DNA of 36,571 nt from a virus. The notes beneath the pieces were generated by a model. The model had not been told where the DNA came from, made no database searches, and saw only the letters and a program-made list of their open reading frames with translations. Shown piece by piece: positions 16,379 through 35,826 of the stretch (position 1 is the first letter of the stretch; each line of letters begins with the position of its first letter). The stretch is from the IMG/VR virus record IMGVR_UViG_3300027741_000010, positions 1 through 36,571 of that record; one strand, written 5' to 3'. A program made the position numbers and the translations under genes.

Positions 16379-16734
16379 TGTCCATTACCTCTGCTTTTCA
16401 GGCTATGAGCAAGACGTACAAAGCCAACGCAACTACGTCTACTCAAACCCTCACAATCACTCCTGATTCGCCTTGCACCAAGCTGTGTGTGGCAAACCAT
16501 CAGCCAACTGGTAGCGGTGGTCAGCCTGTATATTTTAATTTAAGCACTTCTAATGCTTCGATTACTTGCACAGCTCCATCAAACGGATCTCCGCAGTCTT
16601 GCTTAGTGTCTGTGCCTGGCACTATCAAGGTGTTTCAGATCCCAGGTCAAGCATCCAATACAAATCCATTGTATGTAGCTTTTATTGGTGAAGCTGCATC
16701 TGAGTGCTACTTTACTCTTGGTGAGGGCATCTAA
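16378..16734 (+). CDS. Small beta-rich virion protein, possible paralogue of the gene at 4162
   Basis: The 118-residue protein is Ser/Thr-rich and beta-type, and ends 'YFTLGEGI'. It has four cysteines (in 'PCTKLC', 'ITC' and 'QSC') plus a late 'ECYF'. Overall order and ending parallel the 109-residue fibre-cluster protein at 4162-4491. A decoration or structural role is likely but not shown. Start and stop overlap with both neighbours. Confidence 0.65.
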   Translation: MSITSAFQAMSKTYKANATTSTQTLTITPDSPCTKLCVANHQPTGSGGQPVYFNLSTSNASITCTAPSNGSPQSCLVSVPGTIKVFQIPGQASNTNPLYVAFIGEAASECYFTLGEGI

Positions 16735-16961
16735 TGTCTGGACCTTCTCTTTCAGTTGGACGTGGTGAGAAACAGTCTGTAGCAGCTGGCGGTGGCCTGA
16801 CTGAAAAGGGTCGCAAGAAGTACAACCGTGCGACTGGCAGCAAGCTCAAGGCTCCGACGAAAGATACCAGTAACCCTCGTCACAAGTCATTCTGTGCTCG
16901 TTCTAAGAGCTGGAAAGGTGAGCGTGGCAAGGCTGCTCGTAGGCGTTGGGGATGTCGTTAA
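16734..16961 (+). CDS. Basic DUF6321-like phage protein
   Basis: The 75-residue protein has the pattern 'AGGGLTEKGRKKYNRATGS', then 'LKAPTKD', 'HKSFCARS' and a final 'ARRRWGC', which I recognise from a widespread family of small basic phage proteins (DUF6321, name from memory). The strong positive charge and conserved Cys suggest nucleic-acid binding or a compact metal-stabilised fold. Function is unknown. It is the last of a tightly overlapped run that began at 15745. Confidence 0.8.
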   Translation: MSGPSLSVGRGEKQSVAAGGGLTEKGRKKYNRATGSKLKAPTKDTSNPRHKSFCARSKSWKGERGKAARRRWGCR

Positions 16962-28149: not shown

Positions 28150-28226
28150 GCGCTTGTAGCTCAACTGGATAGAGCGTCGGTCTACGAAACCGAAGGTTGG
28201 AGGTTCGAAACCTTCCAAGCGCACCA
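28150..28226 (+). tRNA. tRNA-Arg (anticodon ACG), CCA encoded
   Basis: The 77-base cloverleaf is complete. The acceptor stem GCGCTTG/CAAGCGC closes with encoded ACCA. A D-arm, an anticodon stem TCGGT/ACCGA with loop CTACGAA (anticodon ACG) and a T-arm with TTCGAAA follow. It reads CGU and, after A34-to-inosine editing by host TadA, CGC and CGA. CGT is the visible favourite Arg codon in the virion genes. No integrase accompanies it, so I see no sign of attachment-site use. Confidence 0.95.
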
Positions 28227-31069: not shown

Positions 31070-31545
31070 AGTCTTACAAGTGTGAAGAACATGGGTATTT
31101 TGATGCGTGGGAGCAGAAATGCGAGCATTGCGACGCAATTCCCAAGCAAGTGTTCATTAAGCCCTTCTCCATCAAGTCTGACCGGACCAAGCGGGCCGAC
31201 AGTTCCCTCAAGGGTTTGGCTAATCAGTTTGGCATGACCAACATCAAGTCTACCCGTGAAGGTGAGCACCAGTCAGGCTACTACACCCGCAAAAACAAGG
31301 AAGTTTCTAAGCAAGAACAAGAGTTTGTGGCCGAAACTGCCAAAGGTAAGGAAGCTGCCGAGGGCGGAGTAATGTGGGGCGGCGGCGGAAATTTAAGTAT
31401 GCCTTCCCTTATGAGCGGAAATGCGATAAAGTCCGTCCGTGGTGAACCAGTCGGGTTTAACGTCAAGGGCGAGAACTTTACCGGACCGAAGCCAAGTTCT
31501 GTTATTAACGACCATCAAGGGCTGAGTCTCAAGGACGCGAAATGA
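31057..31545 (+). CDS. Zinc-ribbon-start protein between terminase and portal
   Basis: The 162-residue protein begins with a short zinc-ribbon-like motif: Cys9 and His12 in 'YKCEEHGYF', then 'QKCEHC' (Cys22 and Cys25). A long flexible part with Lys, Glu, Gly and Ser follows. It may be a head-assembly or packaging accessory protein. AAAAGGGGTACAAA precedes the ATG, and the stop overlaps the portal start (ATGA). The family name is not recalled. Confidence 0.65.
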   Translation: MAVLKSYKCEEHGYFDAWEQKCEHCDAIPKQVFIKPFSIKSDRTKRADSSLKGLANQFGMTNIKSTREGEHQSGYYTRKNKEVSKQEQEFVAETAKGKEAAEGGVMWGGGGNLSMPSLMSGNAIKSVRGEPVGFNVKGENFTGPKPSSVINDHQGLSLKDAK

Positions 31546-33158
31546 GAATACCTGAGAATCATGGTGAGCGTGAGTTCTTCTACCTAGACTTGATTAACAA
31601 GTGCAAGGTATCGCTTGATGACCGCCGATCAGATTATGCTTCCTATCGCTCTTGGTATTTGTTCGGCGCGTCACCTGAAGATTCTCCGGCAGCTTACAAC
31701 AAGATTTATTCTCATATAGATCAATTGGTTAGCTTCCTTTATTCGTCAGAAACGACGCGCTTTAATATAGCACTAGGTGCGGCAGTTCATCCTGGCGAGC
31801 ACTCTAAGATTCCGGCTTTGAGCCAGCTCTTGCACGATGAATGGAATAACTCCAATGCCGATAAAGTGTTTACGGAAGCTCTTACTTGGTCGCTGTGTTA
31901 CGGCTCCTGCTTTGTAAAGCTGGTTGTCCGTGAGAAATCGATTTACCCTTACGTTCTGGACCCAGGCTCGATTGGCGTTTTGCGTGAAGACGTATCGACC
32001 CTTGATCGCCAGCAGGCAATCACCCACACATACTACATGACCAAGTCCGATTTGTTTGATCGGCTTTACTCGCATCCTAAGCGGCAGAGCATTGTTGATC
32101 GCGTTACTGCGGCACAATACACGCCGTCAATTATTCCTGAAGGAATCCAACGGCTTGTGACAAGCCAAGTGAATCCTGTCATGTACGGTAACGTCAATCT
32201 TAACCTGAGCGCACCTAACCGTTTCAAGGCCAAGATTGGCGAAGATACCATTGAAATGACCGATCTTTACATCTGGAATGATGAGATCAAAGATTATCAG
32301 ATTGTTACTCGTGCCGCTCCAGATGTAATCGTTTATGACCGTCCGCTTGAGCAGATGTTTATCCGTGGCGAACTGCCAATCATTCAGATCTGCCCGACTC
32401 CTCAATATGATTATTTCTGGGGACAACCTGAAGTTCAGAAACTGGTTGTGCTGCAAGATATGCGTAATCGCCGCATGTCTGAGATCCTTGACCTGCTGTC
32501 CAAGCAAGTCTCCCCGCCGACCGCTTTGACTGGTTTTTCTGGCATTATCGACGAAAAAGACTTTGCCCTAAACCGTGCTGGCGGCCTGTTTATGACAGAC
32601 ATGCCTCAAACTAAAGTTGAAAAGCTGGCTCCTAACATCCCGCAGGATCTTTATGCCCAGCTTAAAGAAATTGACTCTATGTTTGAAGAGGCTTCTGGTA
32701 TCAGCAACGTCCTGTCTGGGCGTGGCGAAAGTGGTGTGCGCTCTGCGGGTCACGCATCGCAATTAGCACGGTTGGGATCGAGCCGTGCAAAGAAACGGGC
32801 GCTCATGGTTGAAGACAGCCTTGAGAAGATGTCTACACTCTATCTCAAGCTACTTCAGGCTTACAACGACACTCACCTTACTGATTCTAATGATGTTAAG
32901 TTTATTCCTGAGCAGTTTACTCGTGATTATGTGGTAAAAGTCGACGCTCACTCGAATAGCCCGATCTTTATGGAAGATCTGCGTCAATTGGCCTTCAACC
33001 TGTTCAAAGCGCAAGCAATTGACAAAGAAAGCCTTATTGACTTGTTAGACCCACCTATGAAACAATTGCTCAAAGACCGTCTCAAAAAGATGGAATCCAA
33101 AGCGGCTGCCCAGCCTCCAGAGCAAAAGCAGCCTGCTAAACCGAAAGCAGTCGCGTAA
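31542..33158 (+). CDS. Portal protein
   Basis: The 538-residue protein has a helical N-terminus ('EREFFYLDLINKCKVSLDDR'), a 'YNKIYSHIDQLVSFLYSSETTRFN' wing segment, a beta stem region ('DLYIWNDEIKDYQIVTR'), 'PTPQYDYFWGQPEVQKLVVLQD' before the clip, and a long C-terminal crown helix. These features, its size and its place after terminase and before scaffold and capsid genes fit a podovirus portal. Twelve copies would form the DNA channel and dock terminase, then the adaptor. The tail is Ala/Gln/Pro/Lys-rich. TAATG joins it to the next small gene. Confidence 0.85.
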   Translation: MRIPENHGEREFFYLDLINKCKVSLDDRRSDYASYRSWYLFGASPEDSPAAYNKIYSHIDQLVSFLYSSETTRFNIALGAAVHPGEHSKIPALSQLLHDEWNNSNADKVFTEALTWSLCYGSCFVKLVVREKSIYPYVLDPGSIGVLREDVSTLDRQQAITHTYYMTKSDLFDRLYSHPKRQSIVDRVTAAQYTPSIIPEGIQRLVTSQVNPVMYGNVNLNLSAPNRFKAKIGEDTIEMTDLYIWNDEIKDYQIVTRAAPDVIVYDRPLEQMFIRGELPIIQICPTPQYDYFWGQPEVQKLVVLQDMRNRRMSEILDLLSKQVSPPTALTGFSGIIDEKDFALNRAGGLFMTDMPQTKVEKLAPNIPQDLYAQLKEIDSMFEEASGISNVLSGRGESGVRSAGHASQLARLGSSRAKKRALMVEDSLEKMSTLYLKLLQAYNDTHLTDSNDVKFIPEQFTRDYVVKVDAHSNSPIFMEDLRQLAFNLFKAQAIDKESLIDLLDPPMKQLLKDRLKKMESKAAAQPPEQKQPAKPKAVA

Positions 33159-33322
33159 TGGCAAAGTCACGTTTGACAAAACCAAGTAACCAGCCGAGGG
33201 CTAAACAGTCCTCATTGTCAAGAAGTGAAAAGCCTGCTAGTATTTCCTACAAGATTACCAACATTAAATCTATGAACCCCCGTAAGGCTCGTGGTTCTAG
33301 ATCCAAACTCAGGAGTTACTGA
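33158..33322 (+). CDS. Small very basic protein after portal
   Basis: The 54-residue protein (MAKSRLTKPSNQPRAKQSS start) has many Lys, Arg and Ser and ends 'ARGSRSKLRSY'; almost no acidic residues. Its ATG overlaps the portal stop, and its stop overlaps the next ATG (TGATG). Likely nucleic-acid or capsid-interior binding. No known family. Confidence 0.7.
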   Translation: MAKSRLTKPSNQPRAKQSSLSRSEKPASISYKITNIKSMNPRKARGSRSKLRSY

Positions 33323-33366
33323 TGTACAAGTCAGTGAAAAGGTCTAAGCGTCGTTCTCGTCGCTAA
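33322..33366 (+). CDS. Fourteen-residue Arg/Lys-rich peptide
   Basis: The ORF encodes MYKSVKRSKRRSRR (eight basic residues in 14). AGGAG lies six bases before the ATG, a better ribosome site than most genes here have, and the start overlaps the upstream stop. Translation is therefore likely despite the size. A protamine-like role in DNA or capsid binding is inference. Confidence 0.55.
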   Translation: MYKSVKRSKRRSRR

Positions 33367-33401
33367 TGACAATAATTGCAACTCAAACACAGGAGGCGTC
33401 C

Positions 33402-33434
33402 ATGCGTCGCAAGGGTCGTAAAGCAAAGCGCTAA
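33402..33434 (+). CDS. Ten-residue Arg/Lys-rich peptide
   Basis: The ORF encodes MRRKGRKAKR (seven basic residues in ten), with a perfect AGGAGG five bases before the ATG. An in-frame ATG at 33366, overlapping the previous stop, would add 12 residues; I prefer 33402 because of the strong ribosome site. It closes a run of three basic products after portal. Confidence 0.5.
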   Translation: MRRKGRKAKR

Positions 33435-33473
33435 CTAATACACGGGTCAGACCCGTTGTTAGCAATTTCCCCT

Positions 33474-33515
33474 GTGGGAGAGGGAAGTCCAAACATATTC
33501 TCCCACGATTTTTTT
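33474..33515 (+). terminator. Intrinsic-terminator-like hairpin before the capsid module
   Basis: GTGGGAGA (33474-33481) pairs perfectly with TCTCCCAC (33499-33506) around a 17-base loop, followed by GA and seven T (33509-33515). A second small hairpin, ACGGGT/ACCCGT, sits at about 33442-33456, and TTCCC upstream could pair with GGGAA within the loop as an alternative structure. It would reduce read-through from terminase and portal genes into scaffold and capsid. Confidence 0.7.
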
Positions 33516-33531
33516 ACTTTGGGATTTTGAG

Positions 33532-34017
33532 ATGGCAAATGAACAGGAATTGATGGCATTGATGTCGCAGGGACAACCAGGCCAAGACGGTGGCGCAATG
33601 GCACCTGGTGCTCCGTCACCTGATATTTCTACGCCTATGACCGATCCGATGTCTACACCGGAACCTAAAGCAGGTCAGAAAGAAGCAGCCATGATTAACG
33701 TATCAATGGCGCTGGACCTTATTGAACAAGCTCTTCCTGCTGTTGGCAGTGAAACCCCTGAAGGCAAGAAGTTGATGTCCGCATTGTCAGCGTTGACCGG
33801 ACTCCTTGGCCCAAAAAAGCAGAAGACAGGCGAACTTCAAAACGCCGAAATTTTGCAGCTACTTCAAAACCTCCCACAAGCTGGCGGTGGAACACCTGGC
33901 TCTCGAATGATTGCCGGATCTCCTCCGAATCTCGGTTTGATGGGGCAAACTCCTCCCCCAGCGCCTCCTGCCGGTCCTCCCACTCCCCCCGCAGGGGGCG
34001 CACCTATGACAATGTAA
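33532..34017 (+). CDS. Pro/Gly-rich protein before scaffold
   Basis: The 161-residue protein has a Gly/Pro/Met-rich start, a helical core (about 55-115: 'INVSMALDLIEQALPAVG', 'SALSALTGLL', 'NAEILQLLQNL') and a Pro/Gly-rich end ('PPPAPPAGPPTPP'). It lies just behind the terminator-like hairpin, in the capsid module. A head-assembly or minor capsid role is likely by position. No family recognised. Confidence 0.7.
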   Translation: MANEQELMALMSQGQPGQDGGAMAPGAPSPDISTPMTDPMSTPEPKAGQKEAAMINVSMALDLIEQALPAVGSETPEGKKLMSALSALTGLLGPKKQKTGELQNAEILQLLQNLPQAGGGTPGSRMIAGSPPNLGLMGQTPPPAPPAGPPTPPAGGAPMTM

Positions 34018-34815: not shown

Positions 34816-35826
34816 ATGGCTATTGGTGGTGGTATTATCCCAGCAGCAAGCTCGTCGCAGTTTACAGAATTAACGTACGTTACACGCCGTGCGTTTATTC
34901 CCAAGCTGGTGGTACAGCTTTACAACAGTACCCCGCTTATGGCTGCGTTGATTGCAAACTCTCAAACCGCAACGGGCGGTGTGTCGTCCGTTACAGTGCC
35001 TGTTCAGGGTGCTCAGTTCGTTAACGCTCAGTGGTCCGACTACAGCGGCTCGTTCGCTCAGCCGTCGGTTCAGCAGGGTGCTTACAACGCTGAATTTACT
35101 CTGAAGCTGATGATTGCTCCTGTTCCTTTCCTCGGAATGGAAGGCGCAGTTCAGCAGGACCATGCAATCATTCCGTTGATCGAAGCTCGTATGAACGACG
35201 CGACCAACGTGATGATGGACGCTATGGCCTACTCGCTGTACAACAACACAACCAACACTCAGCAGTTCACGGGTCTCCCCGCAGCTGTTGACAATGGTAC
35301 TGGTACAGCAACCTACGGCAACATCAACCGCTCCACCTACACCTGGTGGCAGTCTGGTCAGTATGCCGCTGGTTCGGTCAACCCGACCCGTCAGAACGTG
35401 CTTCAGTACATCTCCGGTACGGTGAAGAAGGGCGCAGAAGTGCCTTCATTCGGCGTTTGCGGCTTTGGTACTTGGACGCTCTTGGCTCAAGATTTCGTCG
35501 GTCAGGAACAGTACGTTATCACTCCTGGTAACGGCTTTGACGGCGATGCTAACGGCCCGCAGGCTGCCTTTAAGGCACTGATGGTTGCTGGCGTTCCGAT
35601 CTATCCTGATCCCTATTGCCCAGAAGGTACTCTGTATTTCCTGAATACAAACTACCTGAACCTCTACATTCATGAGGCTGGTCAGTTCGTATTCACTGGC
35701 TTTGAATCGACCCTTCCTAACTGGCAGGTTGGTTATGTTGGCGCAGTTCTGACGATTGCAGAACTTGTTTCCACCAAACCTAAGTCGATGACCAAAGTCA
35801 CTGGCTACAATTACTTGAACATTTAA
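34816..35826 (+). CDS. Major capsid protein (HK97 fold, SU10-like)
   Basis: The 336-residue protein has the HK97 pattern in order. An N-terminal 'FIPKLVVQLYNSTPLMAALI' helix is followed by 'VSSVTVPVQGAQF', the spine region ('EARMNDATNVMMDAMAYSLYN'), a large beta P-domain/A-domain middle, and the late 'APVPFLGMEG'-type and 'PTRQNVLQYI' strands. The end is 'VTGYNYLNI'. The length fits a short-tailed phage without a delta-domain. AAGAGG stands 9-10 bases before the ATG, and an AGGGGTC motif lies further upstream. Codon use looks strongly biased, as for an abundant protein. Confidence 0.88.
   Translation: MAIGGGIIPAASSSQFTELTYVTRRAFIPKLVVQLYNSTPLMAALIANSQTATGGVSSVTVPVQGAQFVNAQWSDYSGSFAQPSVQQGAYNAEFTLKLMIAPVPFLGMEGAVQQDHAIIPLIEARMNDATNVMMDAMAYSLYNNTTNTQQFTGLPAAVDNGTGTATYGNINRSTYTWWQSGQYAAGSVNPTRQNVLQYISGTVKKGAEVPSFGVCGFGTWTLLAQDFVGQEQYVITPGNGFDGDANGPQAAFKALMVAGVPIYPDPYCPEGTLYFLNTNYLNLYIHEAGQFVFTGFESTLPNWQVGYVGAVLTIAELVSTKPKSMTKVTGYNYLNI

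Follow-up and report, generated by a model that had tools for sequence, protein, structure and literature searches.

The stretch analysed here (hereafter the window, i.e., its whole length) is an IMG/VR virus record of 36,571 bases, in which we studied a run of very small genes directly downstream of the portal protein gene. The portal gene (31542..33158, + strand; 538 aa), which is the constant upstream neighbour of these ORFs, matched the Pfam family SU10_portal (35.4 bits; cut-off 30) and portal/head-tail adaptor families in PHROG. Three ORFs for basic products of 54, 14 and 10 aa follow it on the same strand, at exactly the positions given in an earlier, sequence-only reading of this DNA. 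The first encodes a 54-aa protein (MAKSRLTKPSNQ...KLRSY; 33158..33322, +) and lacks a strong Shine-Dalgarno (SD) sequence; its start overlaps the portal stop (TAATG). Micro-ORF 1 (MYKSVKRSKRRSRR, 14 aa; 33322..33366, +), with the SD sequence AGGAG (33311..33315, +), overlaps the end of the 54-aa gene in turn (TGATG), and the coupling of these first two starts to the preceding stops had likewise been correctly recognised. Micro-ORF 2 (MRRKGRKAKR, 10 aa; 33402..33434, +) lies behind the SD sequence AGGAGG (33391..33396, +). An alternative, mechanical reading gives it 22 aa with a start at 33366; the start common to the relatives is the AGGAGG-led ATG at 33402.

The predicted SD pairing energy of micro-ORF 2 (-10.3 kcal/mol) ranks second among the 31 genes of the window, and that of micro-ORF 1 (-6.9 kcal/mol) is middling to good, which refines the earlier description of both ribosome sites as strong. 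The 54-aa gene has the weakest predicted pairing of all 31 genes (-1.3 kcal/mol), and its translation probably depends on coupling. Directly 3' of the micro-ORF 2 stop there is a hairpin (CTAATACACGGGTCAGACCCGTTGTTAG; 33435..33462, +; fold z-score of -2.63 for 33425-33535), followed by an H-type pseudoknot that we refer to as PK2 (33466..33506, +; S1 33466-33471/33482-33487, S2 33474-33481/33499-33506) and a run of seven U (33509..33515, +), which is terminator-like in the window's own subgroup. The terminator-like hairpin of the sequence-only reading is thus present, but as part of a larger structure with PK2 and the U-run; the minimum-free-energy fold of the window, in which pseudoknots are impossible, contains only the hairpin and the S2 helix. 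Next comes a gene for a 161-aa protein (33532..34017, +), which has no family match; it follows the array in most relatives, and other genes occupy this place in deep clades.

Two further genes of the window are mentioned here for their own sake. The major capsid protein (34816-35826) is about 87% identical to that of the GenBank relatives, and is far more conserved than the portal (64-70%). A strongly basic 75-aa protein (16734-16961, +) matches DUF6321 (Pfam, 56.5 bits), a domain that also occurs terminally in larger phage proteins to which no function is assigned.

Distribution and architecture of the array

To place the micro-ORFs in context we collected loci by portal similarity from IMG/VR and MAG contigs, together with two GenBank relatives (42-99% portal identity), and counted 175 unique, independent loci, each with enough sequence downstream of the portal. 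All relatives are uncultured and belong to a large freshwater phage group. Just 3' of the portal, 171 of these loci have between one and three basic micro-ORFs, most of them 10-16 aa long; run on the reverse strand the same detector returned 0/175, and within the portal gene 1/175. Among the four misses, L073 has the array displaced by an inserted gene, L180 has a divergent and less basic 20-aa ORF (MYGKMPKPMKKPPMRDGKRS), and in L183 and L447 no micro-ORF was seen after the portal. We specifically looked for relatives lacking either the ORFs or their ribosome sites at this place, which would have contradicted the sequence-only reading, and the 171 loci have both. A wider set, which includes loci found by micro-ORF patterns and is therefore partly circular and given for scale only, contains the array in 318 of 322 loci; four of the five loci below 50% portal identity have it.

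The micro-ORFs are also rare outside this position. On both strands of the window, micro-ORFs 1 and 2 are the only ATG ORFs of 8-16 codons with a strong SD sequence and at least 40% K/R (third-order Markov null: 0.0 per strand). Across 1.12 Mb of related loci (both strands), 120 of 123 such ORFs lie no more than 600 nt from a portal stop, and the remaining three are the displaced array of L073. T7, lambda, Mx8, Hydrogenobaculum phage 1, a TM7 phage and another Manatee Spring phage yielded three isolated weak matches and no array, and the matches listed in pattern scans of IMG/VR include a single short basic ORF of this kind in any other setting, which is a chance match. The counts in portal-fetched loci, the controls and the comparison phages rule out chance ORFs.

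The composition of the array varies between clades. In the window's subgroup the order is portal, 54-aa gene, MYKSVKRSKRRSRR and M(A)RRKGRKAKR. A third ORF (MRRKGRKARR) is present in a sister subgroup, and the peptides of a large second group are MYKxxKRGRKTRR and others resembling MARKARKGRKSRK. Across relatives, counterparts of micro-ORF 2 include MRRKGRKARR, MARRKGRKAKR and MARKARKGRKSRK. Homologues of the 54-aa protein (51-57 aa, with DQPR and YR motifs) occur in most relatives, but deeper clades, whose portals are about 42-51% identical to that of the window, lack the 54-aa gene and keep the micro-ORFs. Since the protein is absent in L184 (MARKARKARKSRRKSKR), L448 (MRKGRKHSRKAGRKSKR, 17 aa) and L449 (MRKARKAGRKTRR and MARKARKAGRKGRK), it is the tiny ORFs, conserved and portal-linked in every clade examined, that form the conserved core, and not the set of three first proposed. 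Another deep locus, L451, encodes MRKAKRHSRKSKR and MARRKGRKGRK.

The gene downstream of the array also differs between clades (L184, L448-L451, L482) while adjacency to the portal is kept, which identifies the portal as the constant neighbour. In L448 the interval from the portal stop to the next gene comprises a TTGACA promoter-like sequence, a pseudoknot, an SD sequence, the 17-aa ORF and an intrinsic terminator; in L449 it comprises a promoter and two micro-ORFs, then a hairpin with a T-run terminator. By their sequence features, both arrays look like self-contained transcription units. Such stand-alone units need no downstream gene, and thus favour a product acting in trans.

Inserted genes have not destroyed the array in L073 and L123. 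Extra genes or sequence between the portal and an intact array were seen in L073 (2943-3802; an insert of 247-270 aa), L123, L169, L171 and L001 (portal stop +164 to +331; a 55-aa ORF).

In both GenBank relatives (MW202753 and MW202825) the micro-ORFs are present but unannotated, in line with the initial suggestion that relatives of these basic mini-proteins may have been overlooked. Antisense CDSs are instead called across the micro-ORF region, two in MW202753 and one in MW202825. Such antisense hypothetical CDSs in GenBank, which overlie the micro-ORF and pseudoknot region (L081 4740-5038; L082 6082-6342, minus strand), are likely miscalls.

Selection on the encoded peptides

We measured selection on 253 non-redundant arrays using nearest-neighbour pairs. 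Codon changes between nearest-neighbour micro-ORFs were mostly synonymous, with dN/dS-like ratios (which are approximate and do not derive from a full codon model) of 0.13-0.14 in the upstream micro-ORFs and 0.15-0.16 in the last (0.144 and 0.151 in the frame control run). When the same nucleotides were read in the two wrong frames, the ratios were 2.5-12. The spacing between SD and ATG was 5-8 nt in 481 of 498 cases, and ORF lengths hold while the last two ORFs are set apart by spacers of 40 distinct lengths (33-88 nt). Given these comparisons we regard it as certain that the two tiny ORFs are genuine protein-coding genes under strong selection, acting at the protein level.

R occurs 579 times and K 536 times in the unique peptides, followed by A, G, S, Y, T and H; R and K together account for 1115 of about 1770 non-start residues (i.e., about two thirds). 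D, E, L, F, W and P are absent, and hydrophobic residues are limited to Y, M, V and a single I. Exchanges between K and R are among the commonest replacements, which means that charge rather than codon identity is kept, and selection is thus for a short polycation. At the same time the exact peptide is very constant within subgroups (e.g., MRRKGRKARR). Each gene has 9-17 codons (22 in one case), the genes stand in tandem, and nothing points to a precursor. Some micro-proteins have a single cysteine owing to a recurrent Arg-to-Cys change close to the C-terminus (e.g., MYKKAKRGRKSCR and MRKTRKARKVCK), which could allow disulphide pairing.

Pseudoknots flanking the last micro-ORF

The last micro-ORF is preceded in the second group, and in many relatives, by an H-type pseudoknot that we refer to as PK1 (e.g., GAGG-uau-GGCUGACUU-CCUC-uuuu-AAGUUGGCC), the 3' strand of which ends 18-23 nt upstream of the AUG in 81 of 97 distinct cases. 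In an alignment of 36 sequences, 97.2% of cells were paired, a value biased upward by the choice of sequences that have the element, and 11 of 12 pairs had changed on both sides, a covariation much less subject to that bias. None of 500 shuffles reached the observed pairing, and sliding the partner by 1-3 columns reduced it to 37-60%. PK1 thus shows, at the level of the alignment, the two interleaved helices with compensatory changes that define an H-type pseudoknot. Its helices have been rewritten (e.g., GGCUGACUU to GUCCUGCUC) with the peptides keeping the same character. Searched over IMG/VR, the PK1 pattern gave 32 distinct occurrences, 30 of which run into a basic micro-ORF (one of the others leaves the contig just after ATGGCACGCATGAA and one is a chance match); PK1 is thus essentially exclusive to basic micro-ORFs. 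Sought before each micro-ORF of the window's subgroup, it was absent in the same form.

PK2, the second H-type pseudoknot, follows the last micro-ORF and scored highly in 215 of 241 arrays (mean score 30.2 vs. 15.9 in shuffles; 81% exceed the null 95th percentile). This shuffle comparison is the support for PK2, as its geometry in a MAFFT alignment was too variable for a clean pair count. Among the copies S1 occurs as 63 different stems and S2 as 81, and the third loop is rich in A; L145 and L160 lack PK2 although their ORFs are kept. A TTGACA/T box lies 3' of PK2 in 161 of the 215, most often 2 nt on. With a U-tract in just 44 of the 215 copies, PK2 is not a simple intrinsic terminator. Nor does its placement resemble that of a frameshift signal, the distance from the stop being variable (about 11-49 nt) and a hairpin often intervening, and we rejected a role as a recoding stimulator. 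Rfam searches at the gathering score matched nothing but the tRNA in the window and five loci, and gave no match at E up to 10 for window positions 33100-33600 or at E up to 0.5 in six loci.

Two other structures were observed in this region. An imperfect palindrome follows the TTGACA box and covers the expected -10 region in L182, L184, L448, L449 and the post-PK2 stretch of group B loci (e.g., TTTGTAAGTGGTTACAAA and GTTAGTGCTAAC), and may be where a late regulator of the phage acts as on an operator. In many loci, such as L032 and L065, small hairpins lie after or across the stop codons of individual micro-ORFs (TAATCCGTAAGGATTA; AAGCGCTAATTGGCGCTT).

Candidate functions and known systems

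The reading that we tentatively favour, at somewhat below an even chance, is that the micro-ORFs are independent genes for abundant, trans-acting polycations which neutralise or condense phage DNA at packaging or are a component of the head. The micro-proteins would be made abundantly together with the packaging genes late in infection, and would bind nucleic acid non-specifically, much as viral protamines do; condensing DNA during packaging, or a place in the head, would be their most likely job. High output would be served by strong ribosome sites, common Arg and Lys codons, duplicated genes and, in relatives, the pseudoknot at the ribosome entry. By analogy with tisB and timP mRNAs PK1 may recruit ribosomes, or it may itself be a target of the peptides.

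We favour DNA neutralisation because of the occurrence of the genes in 171 of 175 loci against the controls, the frame-specific selection, the retention of charge, the SD spacing, the portal linkage, the stand-alone units and PK1. The sole tRNA gene of the window (28150-28226, +) encodes tRNA-Arg with anticodon ACG, which should decode CGU, CGC and CGA, and we count in favour of the same reading, alongside this tRNA, that these three codons make up 87% of Arg codons in the micro-ORFs. Counted against it are L183 and L447, which do without the genes, and the sequence constancy within subgroups, which exceeds the needs of a non-specific protamine. Tailed phages generally package their DNA with metal ions and polyamines, and are not known to need a protamine. 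That this lineage encodes its own, in two or three tandem genes of 9-17 codons that would be among the smallest trans-acting genes, with a leader pseudoknot driving or feedback-controlling translation in many members, is rather less likely than not. Of the protamine-like or RNA/DNA-binding role suggested at the outset, the composition is borne out (no D or E, about two thirds K/R, K and R interchangeable), while binding, translation and presence in virions are predictions of that reading.

A polycation acting in trans could also do something else, for example as a cofactor of the portal, terminase or scaffold, by binding the ribosome or rRNA, or by acting on the host. The constant portal linkage speaks for such a role, and the composition resembles in kind that of highly basic ribosomal peptides, but nothing specific points to it and there is no family or structure match, making it somewhat doubtful. 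A membrane-active toxin in particular is at odds with the lack of hydrophobic residues beyond Y, M, V and the single I.

Specific binding of the peptides to neighbouring RNAs is the main rival. Modelled on arginine-rich RNA-binding peptides, or on T4 gp32 acting on its mRNA pseudoknot, the peptides would bind PK1, PK2 or other RNA and would autoregulate their translation or control termination or antitermination between the packaging and capsid operons. The last micro-ORF is indeed flanked by conserved, strongly covarying pseudoknots, PK1 at a fixed distance from the AUG and PK2 at the boundary, ahead of a TTGACA box or U-run, and the constancy of the peptides within subgroups would suit a specific ligand. 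However, PK1 was not found in the window's subgroup and PK2 is absent from L145 and L160, which keep the ORFs; the peptides vary in length and register across groups (9-22 aa) with no matching RNA common to all; and the PK1 helices were rewritten while the peptide character stayed unchanged. We therefore consider RNA regulation doubtful.

A cis-acting leader peptide, where the act of translation rather than its product regulates the downstream gene, is unlikely. The ORFs are short, have strong ribosome sites, precede the capsid operon and have hairpins and pseudoknots next to them, as would be expected of leaders, but they come in two or three tandem copies, conserve amino acids and not codons (K and R exchange freely and synonymous codons drift), face different downstream genes in different clades and hence no single cis-linked target, and form stand-alone units with terminators in L448 and L449. 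It is scarcely credible that they are no genes at all but a conserved structured RNA that by accident can be read as basic ORFs: there are conserved RNA structures next to them, but synonymous substitution is frame-specific, SD spacing is constant and ORF lengths hold across variable spacers, and the wrong-frame ratios reject conserved non-coding RNA alone.

Whichever reading is correct, the micro-ORFs represent a widespread, strongly selected gene class below the usual gene-calling size, at a fixed place in a large phage group, and the arrangement of a micro-ORF behind a leader pseudoknot provides a search rule for more such genes. Were the peptides packaged, tailed phages could neutralise packaged DNA with protein, contrary to the picture of ions and polyamines; were they to bind the pseudoknots, they would be minimal RNA regulators; and if their function were plain DNA condensation, the family would be a variant of viral protamines.

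Adenovirus core protein mu, baculovirus p6.9 and the protamines are short Arg/Lys-rich polycations, and the micro-proteins resemble them in being very short and nearly all Arg, Lys and small residues without acidic ones. Like the viral examples they are encoded among virion and packaging genes, here directly after the portal. By contrast, the known polycations come from eukaryotes and eukaryotic viruses and either are longer or arise by cleavage of a precursor, whereas those described here are encoded by genes of 9-17 codons that occur in tandem in tailed phages. Protamine-like cases from baculoviruses and ascoviruses are discussed in two papers (PMC6669607, PMC6163548). Pfam and PDB searches, in which peptides this short can hardly score, gave no homology to a known protamine or core protein. 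Specifically, Pfam at E up to 10 had no match for the longest micro-ORF peptide, a joined pair or the 54-aa protein, PDB gave only chance matches for one long peptide, and PHROGs had no family for the 54-aa protein.

Lambda N-type peptides offer another likeness, as Arg-rich phage peptides with structured RNA nearby. Lambda N, however, is a longer protein that uses a short N-terminal segment for binding and works early, whereas the micro-ORFs are complete genes of the late/packaging region, and a boxB-like element was not identified. The 7-codon gene of microcin C7, a modified antibiotic peptide, and the genes of bacterial leader peptides are comparable in size, but leader peptides work in cis, and selection does not maintain them as polycations. 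The global catalogue of phage small proteins reportedly assembled by Fremin et al. 2022 covers the same broad class as the micro-proteins; in the literature searched we found no phage peptides of this kind.

The closest parallel to PK1 is found in tisB and timP, very small genes whose 5' leaders likewise contain a pseudoknot, on which 30S/S1 standby or translation depends (PMC11228461). These are type I toxins with antisense RNAs, and PK1 differs in directly preceding an SD sequence that lies outside it; the micro-proteins are not small hydrophobic toxins but polycations without L, F, W or P. Analogues thus exist for parts of the system, namely for the protamine-like peptides and for the pseudoknot leaders, but the combination fits no known kind, and neither do trans-acting genes of 9-17 codons with this distribution.
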